Below, in pieces: positions 9,814 to 35,775 of a stretch of DNA of 35,775 nucleotides. This DNA comes from Paraprevotella clara YIT 11840. Its GTDB lineage: Bacteria > Bacteroidota > Bacteroidia > Bacteroidales > Bacteroidaceae. The stretch lies in NCBI RefSeq assembly GCF_000233955.1, contig NZ_JH376608.1:1468-37242 (forward strand). Direction: 5' to 3'. Every line of letters begins with the position of its first letter. The stretch's first letter is position 1. The notes under the pieces were generated by a model. That model was not told the origin of the DNA and made no database searches. It saw only the letters and a list, made by a program, of their open reading frames with translations. The translations under genes and the position numbers were made by a program.

Positions 9814-12069
9814 ATGGAAGATTCTGCCAAAAAACAACTTGACGAAGAGAAAATGGTAAATGATGCTTTTCAGCATCTGATAAATACTTATTTGGCGTCA
9901 CGCCACCGCAAAAAGGTGGAAATCATTACCAAGGCTTTTAATTTTGCCAAACAAGCCCACAAAGGAGTGCGCCGCCTTTCCGGCGAACCTTACATCATGC
10001 ATCCGCTGGCCGTAGCCCAAATCGTATGCAGCGAAATCGGCTTGGGTTCTACCTCCATCTGTGCCGCCTTGCTCCACGACGTGGTAGAAGACACTGACTA
10101 CACCGTGGAAGACGTCTCCAACATTTTCGGTCCTAAAATCGCTCAAATCGTAGACGGGCTTACGAAAATATCGGGAGGCATCTTCGGCGACAAGGCGTCT
10201 GCCCAGGCCGAGTCTTTCAAGAAACTGTTGCTGACCATGAGCGACGACATCCGGGTGATTCTCATCAAGATTTCCGACCGGTTGCATAATATGCGTACGT
10301 TAGGCTCGCAGCCCCCCAACAAACAATATAAGATAGCAGGGGAAACTCTTTATATTTATGCGCCGCTGGCCAACCGTCTCGGACTGAACAAAATCAAAGA
10401 AGAACTGGAAGACCTGAGTTTCCGGTACGAGCATCCTGAGGAATACCAGCAAATTATCGACAAACTGGCACAAACCCGCGCCCATCGTGAAACCCTCTTT
10501 GAAGATTTCACGCGCCCCATCCGCGAGGCATTGGATAAAATGGGGCTTACCTATACCATCAAAGCACGCATCAAAACACCTTATTCCATTTGGTGCAAGA
10601 TGCAAAACAAGCATATCGAGTTCGAAGAAGTCTACGATATCCTGGCCGTAAGAATCATCTTCGAACCGCAAAGGGCAGAAGACGAAATCAGCGAATGTTT
10701 CCGCATCTACGTGTGTGCCAGCCGTATATACAAGCCGCATCCCGAACGGTTGCGCGATTGGCTGACTCACCCGAAAGCCAATGGCTACCAAGCTCTGCAT
10801 GTCACGCTCATGAGTAAGACGGGCCAATGGATAGAAGTGCAAATCCGCTCCACAAGAATGGACGAGATGGCAGAGCAAGGATTTGCCGCTCATTGGAAAT
10901 ATAAAGAAGGCAGCAAAACGACAGCAGACAGCGAAGACGAACTGGAAAAATGGCTCCACACCATCAAAGAAATCCTGGACGACCCACAGCCGAACGCCTT
11001 GGACTTCCTCGATGCCATCAAGTTGAACCTCTACGCCTCGGAAATCTTCGTAGTTACGCCCAAAGGGGAGTTCAAGACGATGCCGGCCGACTGCACGGCA
11101 CTCGATTTTGCATTCAGTATCCACACGTTTCTCGGCAGCCATTGCATCGGTGCGAAGGTGAATCATAAATTGGTACCGCTCAGCCACAAATTACAAAGCG
11201 GCGACCAAGTGGAAATCCTGACCTCGAAAACCCAACGGGTACAGAAAGAGTGGATCAACTTCGCCACCACAGCCAAGGCCAAAAACAAGATACAAGCCAT
11301 CCTGCGCCGCGAAGAACGCGAGCTGCAAAAGCAAGGAGAAGAGATACTTAACGAATTCTTCGAAAAAGCAGAGGTTGAACCCAACAGCATGAACATCGAC
11401 AAACTATGCGACTTGCACCGCATCAAGTTCCGCGAAGAACTCTTCCAGGCCATAGGCAGCAAAAACGTCGTGTTGGGCACGGCCGACTTGAATGTGCTTC
11501 ATGAGAAACAAGGGAACAAGGGCAACAGTTGGACACATTTCATCCCCTTCCTGAAGAAGAAGTCTCCTTCTTCAAAAACAAAAGAGAAACCGACCACGGA
11601 ACAACCCATCTCCATAGATCGGAAAAAAACAGTGGTTCTGAACGAAGAAAACATTCAGAATTTCATCATTGCGGAATGTTGCCACCCCATCCCGGGCGAC
11701 GATGTGTTGGGATATATCGACAGCGACAAGCACATTTACATTCACAAACGCCAATGCCCAGTGGCCGCCAAACTCAAGACCAGCGACGGCAATCATATTC
11801 TCGCGGTTACGTGGGACGTACATAAAACGCTGTTCTTCCCCGCCACCATCAAAGCCAGCGGCATCGACAATGTAGGAATCCTGCACGAAATGACGGGCAT
11901 ACTGTCCAACCAGTTCAACATCAACATCCACAAACTGTCCGTCACGACGAAAGACGGCATATTCGATTGCGAAATACAATTGGGAGTGCACGACGTGGAA
12001 GACGTCAAAAAAATCTGCAACAAACTGAAGAACATGATCGGCGTGGAAGAAGTGACCCGGATAGACTGA
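9814..12069 (+). CDS. rel: Bifunctional (p)ppGpp synthetase/hydrolase (RelA/SpoT family)
   Basis: A 751-aa long Rel enzyme that makes and degrades the stringent-response alarmone (p)ppGpp. Domain order: HD hydrolase (about 45-200) with H88-D89 in LLHDVVED and DRLHNMRTL; synthetase (about 235-365) with RIKT, YDILAVRIIF, DWLTHPKANGYQALH and E341 of IEVQIRS; TGS (about 410-472); a helical/zinc-finger-like region with CCHPIPGDD; and a C-terminal ACT domain (about 677-751). The HDxxED motif is intact, so the hydrolase is probably active. The RIKT variant is of the RxK(D) type, not the EXDD type of synthetase-only RelA, which supports a bifunctional enzyme. It is the last gene of the par cluster and is followed by a terminator. 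Confidence 0.95.
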   Translation: MEDSAKKQLDEEKMVNDAFQHLINTYLASRHRKKVEIITKAFNFAKQAHKGVRRLSGEPYIMHPLAVAQIVCSEIGLGSTSICAALLHDVVEDTDYTVEDVSNIFGPKIAQIVDGLTKISGGIFGDKASAQAESFKKLLLTMSDDIRVILIKISDRLHNMRTLGSQPPNKQYKIAGETLYIYAPLANRLGLNKIKEELEDLSFRYEHPEEYQQIIDKLAQTRAHRETLFEDFTRPIREALDKMGLTYTIKARIKTPYSIWCKMQNKHIEFEEVYDILAVRIIFEPQRAEDEISECFRIYVCASRIYKPHPERLRDWLTHPKANGYQALHVTLMSKTGQWIEVQIRSTRMDEMAEQGFAAHWKYKEGSKTTADSEDELEKWLHTIKEILDDPQPNALDFLDAIKLNLYASEIFVVTPKGEFKTMPADCTALDFAFSIHTFLGSHCIGAKVNHKLVPLSHKLQSGDQVEILTSKTQRVQKEWINFATTAKAKNKIQAILRREERELQKQGEEILNEFFEKAEVEPNSMNIDKLCDLHRIKFREELFQAIGSKNVVLGTADLNVLHEKQGNKGNSWTHFIPFLKKKSPSSKTKEKPTTEQPISIDRKKTVVLNEENIQNFIIAECCHPIPGDDVLGYIDSDKHIYIHKRQCPVAAKLKTSDGNHILAVTWDVHKTLFFPATIKASGIDNVGILHEMTGILSNQFNINIHKLSVTTKDGIFDCEIQLGVHDVEDVKKICNKLKNMIGVEEVTRID

Positions 12070-29653: not shown

Positions 29654-29845
29654 AAGTTCTATCTTTTTATCGTTTATTCTTTTCCAAAGGTCAGAAAAGA
29701 AGCAGGTAAATCCAAATGTTTACGGAAATAATTCGTCTAACTTAACAACTTTATGGTTTTCATAAAATGCCAGTGCAAACTTTTTATTGTGTTATACATT
29801 TTCAATCATCTAATAAACAACGAATTGCGAATCTTCAGCCAGATA

Positions 29846-29895
29846 AAAATGCAAACTCAAATATTAGGTGCATTTGGCTTTATTTACTAAATTTG
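29846..29895 (+). promoter_or_regulatory. Shared upstream element plus promoter of the peptide-system operon
   Basis: The 23-bp element (29846-29868) reads AAAATGCAAACT, C, AAATATT, A, GG. It is followed by the -7 box TAAATTTG at 29888-29895, 17 bases before the ATG at 29913. The end of the element (TTAG, 29864-29867) occupies the -33 position, 20 bases from the -7 box. The same element recurs at 34733-34755. A partial match, TGCAAACT, is also at 29774-29781, without a promoter box behind it. Confidence 0.75.
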
Positions 29896-29912
29896 CTTCA
29901 AACATTAAAGCC

Positions 29913-31472
29913 ATGAAGAGCAAGCTAACTGTTTTATACTTTTCCATTTGGCTGGGAAGCACTTTTTGGAGTGTCTCCGGCCAATTTATAGATGCGGAAA
30001 CAGCTCCTAAATGGTATTTTGCCCTTTTTGGAGGGACATTTTTATGTTGGATGTACGGAATGAGCCACTTCAGAAGTATACCGACTACTAAAAAGCCCCA
30101 TTTCACCGATATTTTCCTCTCCATTTCGCTTTGTGCCACAGCATTGGCTTTCCATGGCCTATTGCAATGGAGCGGACTTTGGACGCCACAGCCCATGTTT
30201 CCGGTATGCGGCAATTTCGACAACCCGGCCGGCATAGCTTCCGCACTGGCTTTTTCACTACCCTTCAGCCTCCACTATACCCAATCTCCCTGCACCCCCT
30301 TTCGTTACACCGCCCTCGCAAGTACCCTCTTCATTGCATGTGCCATCATCGCTTCCGAATCACGGGCAGGAATCCTTTCCATGGGATGTATTTTCCTTTT
30401 ATATTTCCCGATGAAATGGCCTAAAATCGGCAAAGCCCTGACTTTCGGACTTGTGATGCTGTTCACCGCCTCTTCTGTGTTCCTTTATCATTATAAAAAA
30501 GATTCGGCGGACGGAAGGTTGCTTATCTGGCAGTGTACTTGGAATATGATAAAAGAGCGCCCGCTATACGGATACGGTTACGGCGGTTTTCAAGCAAACT
30601 ATATGGACGAACAGGCACAGTTTTTCCGTACTCACCCCAACAGCCGTTATGCACAGTTGGCAGACGATGTGAAATCTCCTTTCAACGAGTATCTCGGGGT
30701 TTTGACCGAATTCGGATTTATCGGCGGTACGGCCATGCTTCTCTGTGCCGTCGTGCTTTTCCGTATGTGGCGGAAACATCCTGGGGGAAGTTCGCGACCG
30801 ACTCTGCTCTGCCTGACAGCCATTGCCGTCTTTTCCCTGTTCTCTTACCCATTCCGCTATCCGCACACGTGGATACTGTGTATGGGTTCCGCCTTTGTTT
30901 TGGTACTTAACGGACACCCGGCATTACGACAGACAACGGGATGTCTTCCTTTCGTGGCAGCCCTCCTTCTCACAACGCTCTCTGTTTTCGCATTCAAACG
31001 TATGCGGGCAGAAATTCTATGGTGTGATACCGCTAACCGCTCCCTCTGCGGCATGACAAAAAAGATGTTGCCCGTCTACAAGGGACTTTACGATAAATTG
31101 GGAAACGAACCGCTGTTTTTATATAATTATGCCGCCGAACTGAACGTAGCCGGCCAGTATGAGGAGAGCCTGCGTATATGTAAGGTAAGCTCGGTACGGA
31201 TGTCCGATTACTACACCCGGCTTCTTCTGGCAGACAACTGCAAACAGTTAAAACGCTATAAAGAAGCTGAACGCCATTTGCAGCAGGCCTCATACATGTG
31301 CCCCAACCGTTTCACTCCCCTTTATGAGCTTTACACCATATATGAAGCCCAAGGAGACACGGCATCTATGCACCGCACGGCAGAAGCCATCCTTCGGAAA
31401 CCCATCAAAGTGGACTCCCCGGAAGTGCGACAAATCATCGCAAAAATGAAACGATTCAAACAGATTAATTAA
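29913..31472 (+). CDS. O-antigen ligase/Wzy-like membrane protein with C-terminal TPR
   Basis: A 519-aa protein with about ten TM helices in residues 1-350, a large periplasmic loop and a soluble C-terminal TPR-like region (about 370-519: YNYAAELNVAGQYEESLRIC, LLLADNCKQLKRYKEAERHLQQA). The Wzy_C/O-antigen ligase signature is seen in SESRAGILSMG and, in the loop, DGRLLIWQCTWNMIKERPLYGYGYGGF and SPFNEYLGVLTEFGFIGG. These enzymes move lipid-linked glycans to lipid A, to another glycan or to protein. There are no other polysaccharide genes here; the following gene encodes a Cys-rich lipoprotein, so a protein target is possible but unproven. The frame is open to a GTG at 29868, but the promoter lies in that part, so the ATG at 29913 is preferred. 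Confidence 0.85.
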   Translation: MKSKLTVLYFSIWLGSTFWSVSGQFIDAETAPKWYFALFGGTFLCWMYGMSHFRSIPTTKKPHFTDIFLSISLCATALAFHGLLQWSGLWTPQPMFPVCGNFDNPAGIASALAFSLPFSLHYTQSPCTPFRYTALASTLFIACAIIASESRAGILSMGCIFLLYFPMKWPKIGKALTFGLVMLFTASSVFLYHYKKDSADGRLLIWQCTWNMIKERPLYGYGYGGFQANYMDEQAQFFRTHPNSRYAQLADDVKSPFNEYLGVLTEFGFIGGTAMLLCAVVLFRMWRKHPGGSSRPTLLCLTAIAVFSLFSYPFRYPHTWILCMGSAFVLVLNGHPALRQTTGCLPFVAALLLTTLSVFAFKRMRAEILWCDTANRSLCGMTKKMLPVYKGLYDKLGNEPLFLYNYAAELNVAGQYEESLRICKVSSVRMSDYYTRLLLADNCKQLKRYKEAERHLQQASYMCPNRFTPLYELYTIYEAQGDTASMHRTAEAILRKPIKVDSPEVRQIIAKMKRFKQIN

Positions 31473-31490
31473 CTATTAAAAAAAACACTC

Positions 31491-32150
31491 ATGAAAAAAG
31501 CATTTTTCATAACGATTATGTCAGCATTGCTGATTTGCAGTTGCCAAAAAGAGAACGAAGAGGTGTACAGTTGCAACAAACATTTGAACGAATGGGCGCA
31601 CGAAAACTTGCAATCCATTCGTTCTATGGACCGTGACGCTTGGCTGAATTTGGATGAAGAGTACAAACGTCCAGCTTTCAACGCCCTCACTCCCGAACAA
31701 AAGTTACTCTTCTGGAAAGACAAACTGAAAGAAGTCATGACTTCTTTCGAATGGAGCGAACCGGAAAGACAACATCTCATGAAAATGTACCGATATTTGG
31801 AAGAACATCCGGACATTTATGAACCGGATTTTTTTGCAGATTCTATCCGAGAGGAAAACTTCGATAAGTTTATTGCAACTTGGACTGTTGATGCTATGAT
31901 TGATTATGAATGGACTGAAGAGCTGCTCTATGGTATTTTATATACAGGAAACCGAATGACAGATAAAGAGGGTCATTTTCAGATTGTACATAAGAAAAGG
32001 GTTATGAGTAGAAAAGAAAGTGCCCCTGATGAGAACTGTAATTGTAATAAAGAAACAGAATATAAGAACTGTAGAGGGGAGGCGTGTACAGGAACGGAAC
32101 GTGGATGCGGCCCCGCAAGTGCAAAACCGTGCGATGGAAAAAAACATTAA
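31491..32150 (+). CDS. Fulvocin C-related Cys-rich lipoprotein
   Basis: A 219-aa protein resembling the Bacteroidetes "bacteriocin fulvocin C-related" family. It has a lipoprotein-type signal (MKKAFFITIMSALLICSC, lipobox Cys near residue 18), a charged helical middle part (about 25-165), and a Cys-rich C-terminal segment with six Cys at 183, 185, 194, 199, 206 and 214 (ENCNCN, GCGPASAKPC). The C-x-C start and GCG resemble the Cys framework of the myxobacterial peptide fulvocin C. Whether it is cut, active or toxic is not known. It follows the ligase-like gene after 18 bases and overlaps the next gene by 17. The second half (from about 31860) is more AT-rich than the core genes. Confidence 0.75.
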   Translation: MKKAFFITIMSALLICSCQKENEEVYSCNKHLNEWAHENLQSIRSMDRDAWLNLDEEYKRPAFNALTPEQKLLFWKDKLKEVMTSFEWSEPERQHLMKMYRYLEEHPDIYEPDFFADSIREENFDKFIATWTVDAMIDYEWTEELLYGILYTGNRMTDKEGHFQIVHKKRVMSRKESAPDENCNCNKETEYKNCRGEACTGTERGCGPASAKPCDGKKH

Positions 32151-33189
32151 ACAAAAGGCCGTTTATATATCGGCCTACATATTTTGCCTGATATGTCCCC
32201 CACTGATATTAAGTGGGGGCCTAGGCCATGGTATTACTCTTTGGAGAGATTGGTGGATATATCTACCGCTGTTTCTAATTGGGATTTTTGCATCATTTGG
32301 AAACAAGAAAATACGGAATCTGGCATTTGTGTTTCAAATGCCAATAACTATTAACGGTATATTTACTACCGTTTTTTCCCCTCTCCTTTATTTGGAACAT
32401 ACTTATTATGTGGTAATCACCACTGGCCTCTACTGTGCATTCTTTATTATATGGCATTCCTATTCTCTGACCATAGTTTCTGCATGGCAAATACTTGGAA
32501 CCATATATCTCGGTATGTTGTTTATACAGGTCGCTCTGATGTTATACTTAGGAATGTACTGGAATGACTTTATAAATTCAATAGCAGGAAGTTTCTCTAC
32601 AGACATTGTATATTCGATTGGGTTGTTGTTCACAACATTGTTTTGCCACATTAAAACTTATATATTGAAATGGGTGATACTATTTAACGGCCTCTGCATA
32701 TACATATTTGTAGGTGGGTTCTATATAGATCCCTATGTATTTAACAAATTACAATATGGTACATTTACTGGAGAAACAAAAGAGAAGGCAGTCCTCATCC
32801 TGCCAGAGACGGACAAAGAAAAAGGATCCGAAACGAATATTCCCCAGGGATATCAGGTATGCATGATTGCTCATAGCCTTAACCCTTGGACAACCAAAAT
32901 GTTTGAAGGTATTGCCTTACAATTCCATAACCATCCCGTCAGGTTTTTCATCTTGGGAGTGACCGACACGCCGACCGAAGCCGAGGTTCTCTCACGGGAA
33001 CATAAGACCATGCATGTGACCGTACCCTTATACTTCATTAGCAGGGAAAAACTGAAGAAATCTCCGCTTAAAGCTAACGCATACGGAGACTATATTTGTA
33101 TACTCAAGAATGACACATTAATATATAAAGGAGAAGCAGACCCGACAACCCGGGCAATCCGCTTCTTATCAAATGAATTACAACCATGA
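32134..33189 (+). CDS. Polytopic membrane protein with degenerate thioredoxin-like domain
   Basis: A 351-aa protein. Residues 1-210 form about seven TM helices (for example WWIYLPLFLIGIFASFG, YYVVITTGLYCAFFIIW, LGTIYLGMLFIQVALMLYLG). After a linker, residues about 230-351 form a soluble domain with thioredoxin/redoxin-like order: GYQVCMIAHSLNPW where a CxxC loop would be, FFILGVTDTPTEAEVL, VPLYFISREKLK, then the strand ICILKNDTLIYKGEAD. The two active-site Cys are absent (HSLNPW), so it is not an ordinary thiol oxidoreductase. MauE/DoxX-type membrane proteins in Bacteroidetes can have such a tail; no CxxC is seen in the membrane part here. The start at 32134 overlaps the upstream gene by 17 bases. 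It is coupled to the next gene by ATGA. The region is AT-rich. Confidence 0.7.
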   Translation: MEKNIKQKAVYISAYIFCLICPPLILSGGLGHGITLWRDWWIYLPLFLIGIFASFGNKKIRNLAFVFQMPITINGIFTTVFSPLLYLEHTYYVVITTGLYCAFFIIWHSYSLTIVSAWQILGTIYLGMLFIQVALMLYLGMYWNDFINSIAGSFSTDIVYSIGLLFTTLFCHIKTYILKWVILFNGLCIYIFVGGFYIDPYVFNKLQYGTFTGETKEKAVLILPETDKEKGSETNIPQGYQVCMIAHSLNPWTTKMFEGIALQFHNHPVRFFILGVTDTPTEAEVLSREHKTMHVTVPLYFISREKLKKSPLKANAYGDYICILKNDTLIYKGEADPTTRAIRFLSNELQP

Positions 33190-34646
33190 AGATTTATTTC
33201 AAAACATCCGCCATCATCATTTTATCCTTGCTCTTCACCAACTGCCGCAAGGAGTCTACCTCTTACCTGCAAAGAGCTTATGAAGAAGCTGTCAAACTCC
33301 ATCAGGAAGGTAACCTGAACGATGCAGTCTTTTATTATCAGTTGACCGCCTTGAACTGCCAATACCACCCCGAAGACAGCCTGACTTATTGGTGGAAAGC
33401 CATGTGTGGACAAGGAGAAGTTTGGAGACAAAAGAACTTCTTGGACCGTGCCCAGACTGATTTTGAAACTGTCTTGCAAAATGCCCCTAAATACCGGCTT
33501 GACACGGCTGAATACATTGCAAGCCGCAAATTGACCCTTATCGCCTTGGAACGACAACACTATGACAAGGCTTATTCTTACGCCATGCGTGCCTGGAAAA
33601 CGGCTGCAAAAAAGCAATTTCCCGAGACGATGACGGACGGACAGGAAAACGAAAGGATATTGGCAGGGTTCGCTTGTGCTTTGAATAACGGACAAGCCGT
33701 TTCGGATACGGTATTCGGACAAATGGAAAAACTGGCAGCAAGTCCGTCATTGGAACTACGGACTACTGCCCTTAAACTGCTTTCATTATATGAAATGCAG
33801 GGTTCCGGCAAGCGCAGCCATCTATCCCAGTATATTGAAAATGAAAACGAATACTGGAACCGTCGGTTTCAAAGTTTTACCGATGCCTCGGAAAGTGAGA
33901 AGAAACAACTAATTGCAGAAAGGGATGCCATTGCCGCTGAACAAAAAAATACGTTATTCATATCCCTGACCATCTTTACCTTGTTACTTGGAGGCAGTCT
34001 CTACGCCATGGCAGACCATCGTCGCAAGCATGAACTTGACCGTATCCGGCTCATCTTGAATCAAAAGGAACAAACCATCCACTTTTTGGAAACGAAACAA
34101 GAAAACTCTGAAAAGCTACTCTCACAGCTAAAAGAAAAAGAAAAAAGAATGGTTGAACTGGAACGACGTGCACAAAAACTGAACGAAATGCAGAGGTTAT
34201 TAGGAGACAGAAAAGAAGATACGAAAAAAGTGACTCGACAATTAGAAGATTTAAACACTCTTAAAGACCAAATACAACAAAAAGAAAAAGAATGGGAAAC
34301 TACCGAACAGCAACTTAGGAATCGTCTTTTATACCACATGGAAATCGGACGCAACCTACCCACAGCCGACAATCCGAACAAACCTACTCCCAAAGAATAC
34401 ACAAACTTAATCGCTACGGAGGAAAAGAAAATTTTATTCTTGAAAGAAATAGATTATTGTTTCAATAACTTTGCAAGCGGACTCAAAAAAATTACACCCA
34501 ATTTAACTATGCATGATGTGGTTCATTGCTGCCTCTTCCGCTTAGGTATCCGTACGTCAGACATCGCTGCAATGTGCAGCCTGACTAATAGTACCATATC
34601 GTGTCGACGGAAACGCCTTGAAGCCAAAATGGAGGCTAAAACCTAA
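33186..34646 (+). CDS. Membrane-spanning TPR/coiled-coil/HTH regulator
   Basis: A 486-aa protein. It has a lipoprotein-like or signal-anchor N-terminus (LSLLFTNC, Cys20; Asn at -1 is unusual), then a TPR-rich extracytoplasmic domain (about 25-250: YEEAVKLHQEGNLNDAVFYYQL, YDKAYSYAMRAWKTA), one TM helix (about 256-277, NTLFISLTIFTLLLGGSLYAM), a long coiled coil (about 285-385) and a C-terminal helix-turn-helix (about 430-486: LTMHDVVHCCLFRLGIRTSDIAAMCSLTNSTISCRRKRLEAKM). This is the architecture of a Bacteroidetes one-component regulator that would sense outside and bind DNA inside. A TPR-TM-LuxR/sigma-4-like HTH of this sort is known in the phylum. It is coupled to the previous gene (ATGA) and is the last gene of the operon. 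Confidence 0.85.
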   Translation: MKIYFKTSAIIILSLLFTNCRKESTSYLQRAYEEAVKLHQEGNLNDAVFYYQLTALNCQYHPEDSLTYWWKAMCGQGEVWRQKNFLDRAQTDFETVLQNAPKYRLDTAEYIASRKLTLIALERQHYDKAYSYAMRAWKTAAKKQFPETMTDGQENERILAGFACALNNGQAVSDTVFGQMEKLAASPSLELRTTALKLLSLYEMQGSGKRSHLSQYIENENEYWNRRFQSFTDASESEKKQLIAERDAIAAEQKNTLFISLTIFTLLLGGSLYAMADHRRKHELDRIRLILNQKEQTIHFLETKQENSEKLLSQLKEKEKRMVELERRAQKLNEMQRLLGDRKEDTKKVTRQLEDLNTLKDQIQQKEKEWETTEQQLRNRLLYHMEIGRNLPTADNPNKPTPKEYTNLIATEEKKILFLKEIDYCFNNFASGLKKITPNLTMHDVVHCCLFRLGIRTSDIAAMCSLTNSTISCRRKRLEAKMEAKT

Positions 34647-34732
34647 GTTTCAATACACGATGCAAATTATTTTTTGGATGAGAATTTTATAAATAACAAA
34701 TATTCAGATATATATAAAATTTCCAATACCCT

Positions 34733-34783
34733 AAAATGCAAACTAAAATATTTGGATTTTACTCGACAACGTGCCTAACTTTG
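34733..34783 (+). promoter_or_regulatory. Second copy of the shared upstream element plus promoter
   Basis: The 23-bp element (34733-34755) reads AAAATGCAAACT, A, AAATATT, T, GG: 21 of 23 positions equal the copy at 29846. It ends in the -33 box TTTG (34751-34754). The -7 box TAACTTTG is at 34776-34783, 21 bases further. The distance from TGCAAACT to the -7 box is 31 bases here and 30 at the first copy. It drives the unit with the lipoprotein gene at 34930. Confidence 0.75.
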
Positions 34784-34802: not shown

Positions 34803-34895
34803 ATGTCGAACATATCAAACAAAGTCCAATGGATTAAACGGAAACAAGGAGGATACGGCAATGAGATGTTACCGGCTTCAAAAGAGGAAAAGTAA
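34803..34895 (+). CDS. Possible 30-aa leader ORF
   Basis: A short frame starting with ATG 20 bases after the -7 box: MSNISNKVQWIKRKQGGYG followed by NEMLPASKEEK, then TAA. It is the first ATG of the predicted transcript, but no ribosome binding site precedes it. Its interior carries AAGGAGGA (34846-34853), the binding site for the ATG at 34861. It might be a leader peptide that controls downstream translation, or be meaningless. Confidence 0.2.
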   Translation: MSNISNKVQWIKRKQGGYGNEMLPASKEEK

Positions 34896-34929: not shown

Positions 34930-35577
34930 ATGAAAAAAGTAAAAGTTTTCATTGCCATGATTGCCGTGGCACTGGGTGGACTTATCATTTGGAGTTGTAC
35001 CCAAGACGAAATGGAAAACGGACAAGGCACCTACCGTTATTCAGCAGAAGAAATCGTCACGCTACGTGCTATGGCAGAAAAGTATGGAGTGCCGGAAGTT
35101 GTATTTGAAACAGAGTCGGGAATCCCACTTCCGACATTGGAAGAAATGGAAGAAACTTTTAAAAACTTCGGGCTGATAAAAGCTTCATTAACGGCTCAGT
35201 TGGAAGTAATAGACTCAACCTCCCACTCAATGGTCTTCAAAACAAAAAAAATCCCATTCAAACGATTATCTTCCATATCCGAAAGCATGAAGACAGAACG
35301 CGAAATCACATATGGAACTTTAATATGGAACATATCCTGGCAACAAAGTGTTTATAATGGAAGTTACCAATGTCCAGTCGTTAGTGCAACGGGAACAATA
35401 GAATTTTCTCCTGAAATGCAACGTCTTGGATATTTTACAAGCAACAATAGAAATTTTTGTTCTATACGTGGGACAGAGTTATACATAACATTTGAATGCC
35501 AAATAAACTACAGTCGTTCTCATTTTAACTTTGCATACTCAGACTGGGTGCATTCTGGATTTAGGCCATATCGGTAA
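34930..35577 (+). CDS. Predicted lipoprotein of unknown function
   Basis: A 215-aa protein that I do not recognise. It has a signal peptide with a lipoprotein-like end (MKKVKVFIAMIAVALGGLIIWSC, split by sense; Cys near residue 23), then an acidic helical stretch (SAEEIVTLRAMAEKYGVPEV, LEEMEETFKNFGLI), then a C-terminal part of beta character with three Cys (YQCPVV, FCSIR, FECQI). The frame is open to an ATG at 34861 that has an ideal AAGGAGGA eight bases before it. That start adds 23 residues with many basic side chains before the same signal peptide. I prefer 34930 because it gives a normal signal, but 34861 has the better binding site. The coding part is AT-rich compared with the core genes. 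Confidence 0.75.
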   Translation: MKKVKVFIAMIAVALGGLIIWSCTQDEMENGQGTYRYSAEEIVTLRAMAEKYGVPEVVFETESGIPLPTLEEMEETFKNFGLIKASLTAQLEVIDSTSHSMVFKTKKIPFKRLSSISESMKTEREITYGTLIWNISWQQSVYNGSYQCPVVSATGTIEFSPEMQRLGYFTSNNRNFCSIRGTELYITFECQINYSRSHFNFAYSDWVHSGFRPYR

Positions 35578-35585
35578 CAATACAC

Positions 35586-35616
35586 ATGAGGTTGCCTCAG
35601 AATCAGGCAACCTCAT
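35586..35616. repeat. Perfect 12-bp inverted repeat after the lipoprotein gene
   Basis: ATGAGGTTGCCT (35586-35597) / AGGCAACCTCAT (35605-35616), with a 7-base loop. It begins 9 bases after the lipoprotein stop and ends 18 bases before the next ATG. No T tract follows on either strand, so it may be a processing or attenuation hairpin rather than a full terminator. Confidence 0.75.
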
Positions 35617-35634: not shown

Positions 35635-35775
35635 ATGAAACAAATTATCTTTATTTCCATTTTTATCTTTTGGAATTATCTTTGCTTTGGCGCAACTACA
35701 TTCAATACAGATTCTTTACAACGTAGAATGTCACTCTTCGGAACGATGCTGCCGCAAGAAAAGGTATACGTGCAC
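35635..35775 (+). CDS. Partial secreted protein, MG2/alpha-2-macroglobulin-like start
   Basis: The first 47 codons of a gene cut by the window end. It has a signal peptide (KQIIFISIFIFWNYLCFGA) followed by NTDSLQRRMSLFGTMLPQEKVYVH. The final QEKVYVH resembles the P/Q-EKVYLHLD start of Bacteroidetes secreted proteins with MG2-like domains, often followed by a TonB plug. This is a family guess from seven residues. It follows the lipoprotein gene after 57 bases. Confidence 0.6.
   Translation, partial: MKQIIFISIFIFWNYLCFGATTFNTDSLQRRMSLFGTMLPQEKVYVH

Follow-up and report, generated by a model that had tools for sequence, protein, structure and literature searches.

Membrane-bound one-component regulators are a known kind of regulator. 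The ToxR/CadC-type activators proper have an N-terminal winged helix-turn-helix (HTH) domain and a C-terminal periplasmic domain, and they work while membrane-bound, in many cases alongside a second membrane protein as partner. We analyzed a 35,775-nucleotide stretch of Paraprevotella clara YIT 11840 (NCBI RefSeq assembly GCF_000233955.1, contig NZ_JH376608.1, positions 1,468 to 37,242; the whole stretch is called the window below), in which two 23-bp elements stand before two promoters on either side of an operon of four genes, A to D. The last gene encodes a protein, D, predicted to combine a tetratricopeptide repeat (TPR) sensor, a transmembrane (TM) helix, and a C-terminal HTH-like domain. 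We consider it probable that the membrane-spanning D activates its own operon and units of surface-protein genes through paired operators, of which each element forms one half.

Like the ToxR/CadC-type activators, D is predicted to have an extracytoplasmic sensor and a cytoplasmic DNA-binding domain joined in one polypeptide by a single TM helix. It falls outside that family, and it differs in the reversed domain order (sensor N-terminal, HTH C-terminal), the TPR sensor, a lipobox-like cysteine, a long coiled coil, and operator pairs ~65 or 76 bp apart. A second likeness is to the BT3442 family (NF053779), which residues 326–483 of D match with E 4.1e-9; the score of 35.7 bits against a cut-off of 940 places D outside it. 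The BT3442 TPR protein belongs to the B. thetaiotaomicron cluster around the MACPF protein BT_3439, which includes a putative operon rich in lipoproteins (PMC2954219). That cluster differs from the D locus in gene content, and the accessible part of the same paper describes no operator. Among many TPR proteins, the TPR part of the D model also resembled the Rap/Phr receptors RapH, RapI, and Rap(pLS20), a weak and generic TPR likeness (all E at least 7.6e-3); to our knowledge, Rap proteins are cytoplasmic and without an HTH output domain of D's kind. A last likeness concerns an operon member, not the regulator: gene B is by score a member of the fulvocin C-related bacteriocin family (NF033852; 91.7 bits against a cut-off of 35). 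Our literature searches, mostly of titles and with few subscription papers, found no published description of such a TPR-TM-HTH regulator, operator, or regulon, and a full-text literature search found no paper linking fulvocin with Bacteroides.

Paired Boxes in the Window Genome

The original prediction, made from the DNA letters alone, described the two elements (Table 1) as nearly identical, fused to the –33 region, and equally phased to a TAnnTTTG box. All of this was borne out: the elements are equal at 21 of 23 bases (repeat family D4, 91%), the box TGCAAACT inside them precedes the –7 box by 30 bp at site 1 and by 31 bp at site 2, and their right ends, TTAG and TTTG, fall ~20 bp before it. 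The –7 boxes stand at a fixed position after the element, and both fit the Bacteroides-type housekeeping TAnnTTTG (consensus TANNTTTGY in the accessible part of PMC12632263). Since the right end of each element is the place of the –33 sequence, the distinctive portion is the left part, TGCAAACT with the A/T stretch that follows.

A chance repeat was rejected, as 20 dinucleotide shuffles of the window gave no same-strand pair of 23-mers with at most two mismatches and the reversed control of the genome search below gave no match. The real window holds two such repeats, the pair at 29846/34733 and a direct repeat with a 110-bp offset at the left edge. The latter occupies positions 1 to about 150, with copies of ~40 bp starting at 1 and 111.

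Missed in the original prediction was a second TGCAAAYT, exactly 76 bp upstream of the proximal box at both window sites. The window has five occurrences of this motif, all on the forward strand, and four of the five are the pairs 29774/29850 and 34661/34737. We found a third copy of the element on the minus strand of another contig (G000:C16:40247-40269; G000 is the window genome), 40 kb or more from either contig end, preceding two BT_3535-like genes and again with a distal box 76 bp upstream. By its letters and spacing, each 23-bp element is the proximal half of a putative two-box operator. The distal box could in principle mark a second promoter, and we rejected this because, by eye, no TAnnTTTG follows the window distal boxes at the right distance.

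The flanks had been called unrelated. This stands for sites 1 and 2, at most 47% identical in the spacer and 20% in the 20 bp downstream, and does not for site 2 and the third copy, which are paralogous cassettes (spacer 69%, downstream 65% identity). Site 1 has no clear flank similarity to either.

Between promoter 2 and gene E, the leader (34803–34895, forward strand) contains a 30-codon open reading frame (ORF), MSNISNKVQWIKRKQGGYGNEMLPASKEEK. ATGTCGAAC is likewise present in the paralogous leader of the third site, and in the corresponding leader of G014 (P. xylaniphila) the frame stops after four codons, as judged by eye.

Specificity and Spacing of the Boxes

A search of the window genome found the full element confined to three promoters and not randomly scattered: allowing at most three mismatches, the 23-mer pattern gave three matches and its reversed control none. 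The short box alone is not rare: at up to two mismatches it gave 21 matches and its reversed control 20. Of these 21, the three exact matches alone combine a –7 box at 30/31 bp with TGCAAAYT at 76 bp; the other 18 have no TAnnTTTG 20–41 bp downstream and no TGCAAAYT within 95 bp upstream. Across 18 Paraprevotella genomes, the paired boxes with a fixed 68-base gap and at most three mismatches gave three exact matches, one 3-mismatch match in G004, and none for the reversed control. The 23-mer was also searched for, with up to three mismatches, in 150 genomes (that of the window and its relatives), and gave 37 matches in 30 genomes against 23 for the reversed control. Perfect matches were limited to the window genome (three) and G014 (one); two had two mismatches (G038 and G129) and all others three. 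We regard the 3-mismatch matches as background, probably with the exception of the one in G013.

To describe the geometry, we read 21 promoters in seven genomes, counting those of the A genes of G010 and G017 by hand. The gap to the –7 box is 30 or 31 bp in all 21; the box of G013_a, read by eye, has one mismatch, and for G013_b we used one of two TAnnTTTG, judging the other to be chance. Twenty of the 21 have a distal box, G014_a being the exception. The spacings of that box are 65 (seven promoters), 66 (one), 75 (two), 76 (four), 77 (five), and 78 bp (one), which fall into two clusters, 65–66 (eight) and 75–78 (twelve), that differ by one helical turn and leave the values between them empty; G010 has both. 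The distal motif of the second operator class described below was searched for as TCAAC with context (A/GTCAAC or TTCAAC). Among five mutually distant promoters of the 12 in that class, the boxes are 73–100% identical and the spacers 25–48%.

Operator Classes and the Candidate Regulator

Full-length relatives of D were found in seven of the 18 Paraprevotella genomes, with two more in G055, and in the same eight genomes only when a sample of 399 genomes of the family was searched. We scored G005, which has a match to the C-terminal domain only (E 5.8e-6), as without D. The association of regulator and element suggested in the original prediction extends across the genus: a version of the element lies near D in all seven genomes with a full-length D. 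Our results support the reading put forward there, in which the elements would be an activator site, D the candidate binder, and the two units one regulon, and they add the second box and a third unit. These versions fall into three classes, with the box TGCAAACT in G000 and G014 (class 1), TTTGTCAAC in G001, G008, G010, and G017 (class 2), and TGCGAAYA in G013 (class 3); one G014 site, TTTGCGAACT, is intermediate.

Because the initial class-2 sites had been chosen partly by their –7 spacing, we repeated the genus search without that condition, using TTTGTCAACnnnAAAATTTGG with at most two mismatches, and obtained 19 matches and one for the reversed control. Twelve matches have zero or one mismatch; they are confined to the four class-2 genomes, all D-bearing, and every one is paired with a distal box at 65–66 or 75–77 bp and followed by a –7 box at 30/31 bp. 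This includes six matches from outside the initial pick, which still have the –7 spacing. A distal box is absent from all seven 2-mismatch matches (in G003, G008, G010, G014, and G017), and just one of them (G003) is followed by a –7 box, at 30 bp. Neither a class-1 site (at most three mismatches) nor a class-2 site (zero or one mismatch) was found in the 11 genomes that lack full-length D, of which six are less than 90% complete, and the class-3 form was covered there only as a 3-mismatch variant of class 1.

In a tree of the DNA-binding half of D, the four class-2 regulators group together (99/100 with G055a included and 86/100 without it), and the tree of the TPR half leaves that branch open. 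Operator class agrees with the DNA-binding half of D. At the two G055 loci, we found one 4-mismatch match inside the regulator region, with no –7 box; a different operator class was not searched for there.

The domain layout of D is predicted from its sequence and from an AF2 model, in which TPR-like helices (27–206) are followed by a long helix (213–325) spanning a single TM segment (256–276) and by a C-terminal helical domain. Modelled alone, that domain is HTH-like, with a predicted local distance difference test score of 93 and helices at 49–56, 62–72, 77–84, and 88–103 (domain numbering). A sensor-like TPR, a TM helix, and an HTH-like domain would then sit in one chain, as in membrane-bound one-component regulators. 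The lipobox-like Cys20 is invariant in nine of nine relatives, and D is probably lipid-anchored at its N-terminus. Gene C lies directly 5′ of D in all nine loci read.

Proposed Mechanism and Alternatives

We infer that D is the binder of the boxes, that it activates, that it docks on one face of the DNA or loops it, that it forms a complex with C, and that it answers to a signal. From N- to C-terminus it would consist of a lipid anchor, a periplasmic TPR sensor, a single membrane helix, a long coiled coil in the cytoplasm, and the HTH, and its partner C, whose gene overlaps that of D (ATGA), would probably be part of the sensing complex. Once triggered, D, as a dimer or higher oligomer, would grip the proximal box beside the –33 region together with the distal box, which would lie on the same face of the DNA six or seven helical turns further upstream, with both boxes turned towards the membrane. 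It would recruit RNA polymerase to the housekeeping TAnnTTTG promoter, and the A-B-C-D operon, the lipoprotein/MG2-like unit at 34930, and the BT_3535-like unit elsewhere would thereby be raised. With D tethered in this way, both boxes would be expected to point to the membrane, and this would account for spacings of some six and seven turns. The proximal box at the –33 region occupies the place of a polymerase-contacting activator.

D might instead bind the boxes and repress, hindering the polymerase until a signal relieves it. Position alone cannot separate the two modes of action, and two phased operators are the geometry of repression loops, too. We nevertheless hold repression to be unlikely: the proximal box stops where the –33 sequence starts and leaves the –7 box uncovered, and –33 sequences are poor at the promoters of the D operons or A genes (TTAG in G000; in the A promoters of G010 and G017, no TTTG ~20 bp before the –7 box), as expected where an activator is needed.

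It seems quite unlikely that the operator is genuine and bound by some other, unlinked protein, with D merely encoded in the regulon. None of the 11 congeners without full-length D has a site at the thresholds above, operator class tracks the DNA-binding half of D, and C-D lie near an element in all seven genomes. What speaks for such a protein is that the third unit is unlinked to D and adjoins an ORF (L004, 5999–6616) that by eye resembles a response regulator, together with the weak family-model support for the HTH of D and its want of a significant PDB fold match.

That the element is the extended core promoter of a special sigma factor, without any activator, would fit the fixed 30/31-bp distance to the –7 box. 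It is very improbable: the –7 box follows the housekeeping consensus, sigma recognition leaves no role for a distal box 65–78 bp upstream, and the box letters change between species along with the regulator. The paralogous flanks of site 2 and the third site could mark the repeats as functionless relics of duplicated cassettes, which is hardly credible given that site 1 keeps the boxes and their spacing in unrelated flanks and that class-2 boxes outlive their spacers.

Several observations weigh against activation by D through paired operators. The operator, D, and most targets are physically linked, with only the units at G000:C16 and G014:C7 clearly elsewhere, so the co-occurrence of D and element partly reflects co-inheritance. 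Approximately unbiased (AU) tests did not reject a class-2 group for the TPR half (p 0.284) or an alternative group for the cytoplasmic half (p 0.205). Different trees for the two halves, hinted at by identity tables, are accordingly not part of our argument, as a common grouping was not rejected, and we claim only the agreement of operator class with regulator phylogeny. The HTH domain found no significant fold match in the PDB, and the LuxR/GerE model (PF00196) reached 15.1 bits (E 0.018, in one of nine members), below its gathering cut-off of 23.5; other HTH models match the domain as weakly. The promoters are partly duplicates, which makes the helical phasing a hint and not a statistic, and a few contain further TCAAC elsewhere; G010_e has candidates at 65 and 80, the one at 65 with the full GTTAAGTCAAC. 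Some expected sites are also missing: the E-unit site of G014 has no distal box, the A orthologue of a second cluster in G008 (C56) has no element, and lone BT_3535-like genes (G010:C7 and G017:C77) have none in front within five mismatches. The A-D operon of G014 keeps a distal box and has no proximal box.

This last case also bears on the auto-regulated regulon of the original prediction. An element precedes the presumed D operon in five genomes (G000, G001, G008, G013, and G017), and probably in G010, where the assignment is only probable because A-B with the element end one contig and C-D start another. Given the P. xylaniphila operon, autoregulation is not universal. Upstream of 12497 on the minus strand of that locus (L069), the sequence is window-like to just past the distal box and then departs abruptly, as seen by eye, which suggests that the promoter before gene A was replaced. 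In G013 (L072, about 10200–10350, minus strand), a short ORF between element and gene C seems by eye to join an A-like start to a B-like end, as though an internal deletion had removed A and B and spared the operator and C-D.

We tentatively extend the proposed activation by D, in a form that we think rather doubtful. A tethered activator may reach only DNA laid along the membrane, and hence require same-facing operators; the TPR domain and C may read a secreted product of the regulon, such as the Cys-rich tail of gene B; the island of surface-protein and bacteriocin genes may be a density- or contact-sensing circuit; and the operator letters and the DNA-binding domain may have co-diverged among Paraprevotella species.

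The analysis provides a concrete, letter-level candidate operator and regulon for a TPR-TM-HTH regulator, and with the paired sites at 65 and 76 bp one can readily test if activators tethered to the membrane depend on helical phasing of the DNA. Moreover, it ties the little-characterised, secreted fulvocin C-related, BT_3535-like, MG2-like, and Wzy_C-TPR families into one candidate surface programme of Paraprevotella. Gene-deletion tools exist for P. clara (PMC9477747, accessible part), so the predictions are directly testable.

Genes Downstream of the Putative Operators

At all three sites of the window genome, the units downstream of the operators encode secreted or membrane proteins. The contents found downstream of operators are the A-B-C-D operon, E-like lipoproteins, large MG2-like proteins with the motif QEKVYLH, and BT_3535-like proteins.

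Table 1. Positions of the putative operators, promoter boxes, and candidate regulon genes in the window
Feature	Positions	Strand	Description	Evidence
Distal box, operator 1	29774–29781	+	TGCAAACT	76 bp upstream of proximal TGCAAACT
Proximal element, operator 1	29846–29868	+	AAAATGCAAACTCAAATATTAGG	TGCAAACT at 29850–29857; right end TTAG in –33 place
–7 box, promoter 1	29888–29895	+	TAAATTTG	TANNTTTGY consensus (PMC12632263, accessible part)
Gene A	29913–31472	+	multi-pass Wzy_C (O-antigen ligase-like) protein, C-terminal TPR, 519 aa	Pfam PF04932, E 9.6e-19; hydropathy
Gene B	31491–32150	+	fulvocin C-related lipoprotein, Cys-rich tail (Cys 183–214), 219 aa	NCBIfam NF033852
Gene C	32134–33189	+	multi-pass membrane protein; overlaps D (ATGA)	no family match
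Gene D (candidate regulator)	33186–34646	+	Cys20, TPR, TM 256–276, coiled coil, C-terminal HTH-like domain (predicted), 486 aa	
Distal box, operator 2	34661–34668	+	TGCAAATT	76 bp upstream of proximal box
Proximal element, operator 2	34733–34755	+	AAAATGCAAACTAAAATATTTGG	TGCAAACT at 34737–34744; TTTG at 34751–34754 in –33 place
–7 box, promoter 2	34776–34783	+	TAACTTTG	
Gene E	34930–35577	+	lipoprotein, 215 aa	lipobox-like WSC23
Gene F	35635–35775	+	protein start, gene cut by contig end	PQEKVYVH motif

The TPR models in gene A were below the Pfam cut-off. Orthologues of this Wzy_C-TPR protein with more than 50% identity occur in five genomes, and BT_3535-like proteins in four of the 18 Paraprevotella genomes, all of them D-bearing. 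Relatives of gene E adjoin the regulator in G014 and G017 (BLASTP: 62% across 123 aa; 49% across 216 aa), and another lies in the second G008 cluster (44% over 123 aa). The motif at the start of gene F recurs in large MG2-like proteins, of ~900 aa, in the related regulons; in two of the four large proteins scanned, MG2 matched below the Pfam cut-off.

Five Wzy_C-TPR proteins are encoded in the window genome, and the copy on C21 (L167) stands beside an MG2-like protein. We rejected the paralogues on C21, C23, and C41 (L167, L166, and L168) as regulon members, as they have neither a neighbouring regulator homologue nor an element. A defence system was likewise rejected: a PADLOC scan of seven proteins matched only the coiled-coil part of D, weakly (E 0.0043). 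The proteins 00502/00509 of the trypsin-degrading locus of P. clara depend on the type IX secretion system, and a tie to that locus was dropped, as the accessible part of the paper contains nothing connecting them with this cluster (PMC9477747). Between E and F, at 35586–35616, lies a perfect 12-bp inverted repeat with a seven-base loop and no T run after it, a possible attenuator or processing site.

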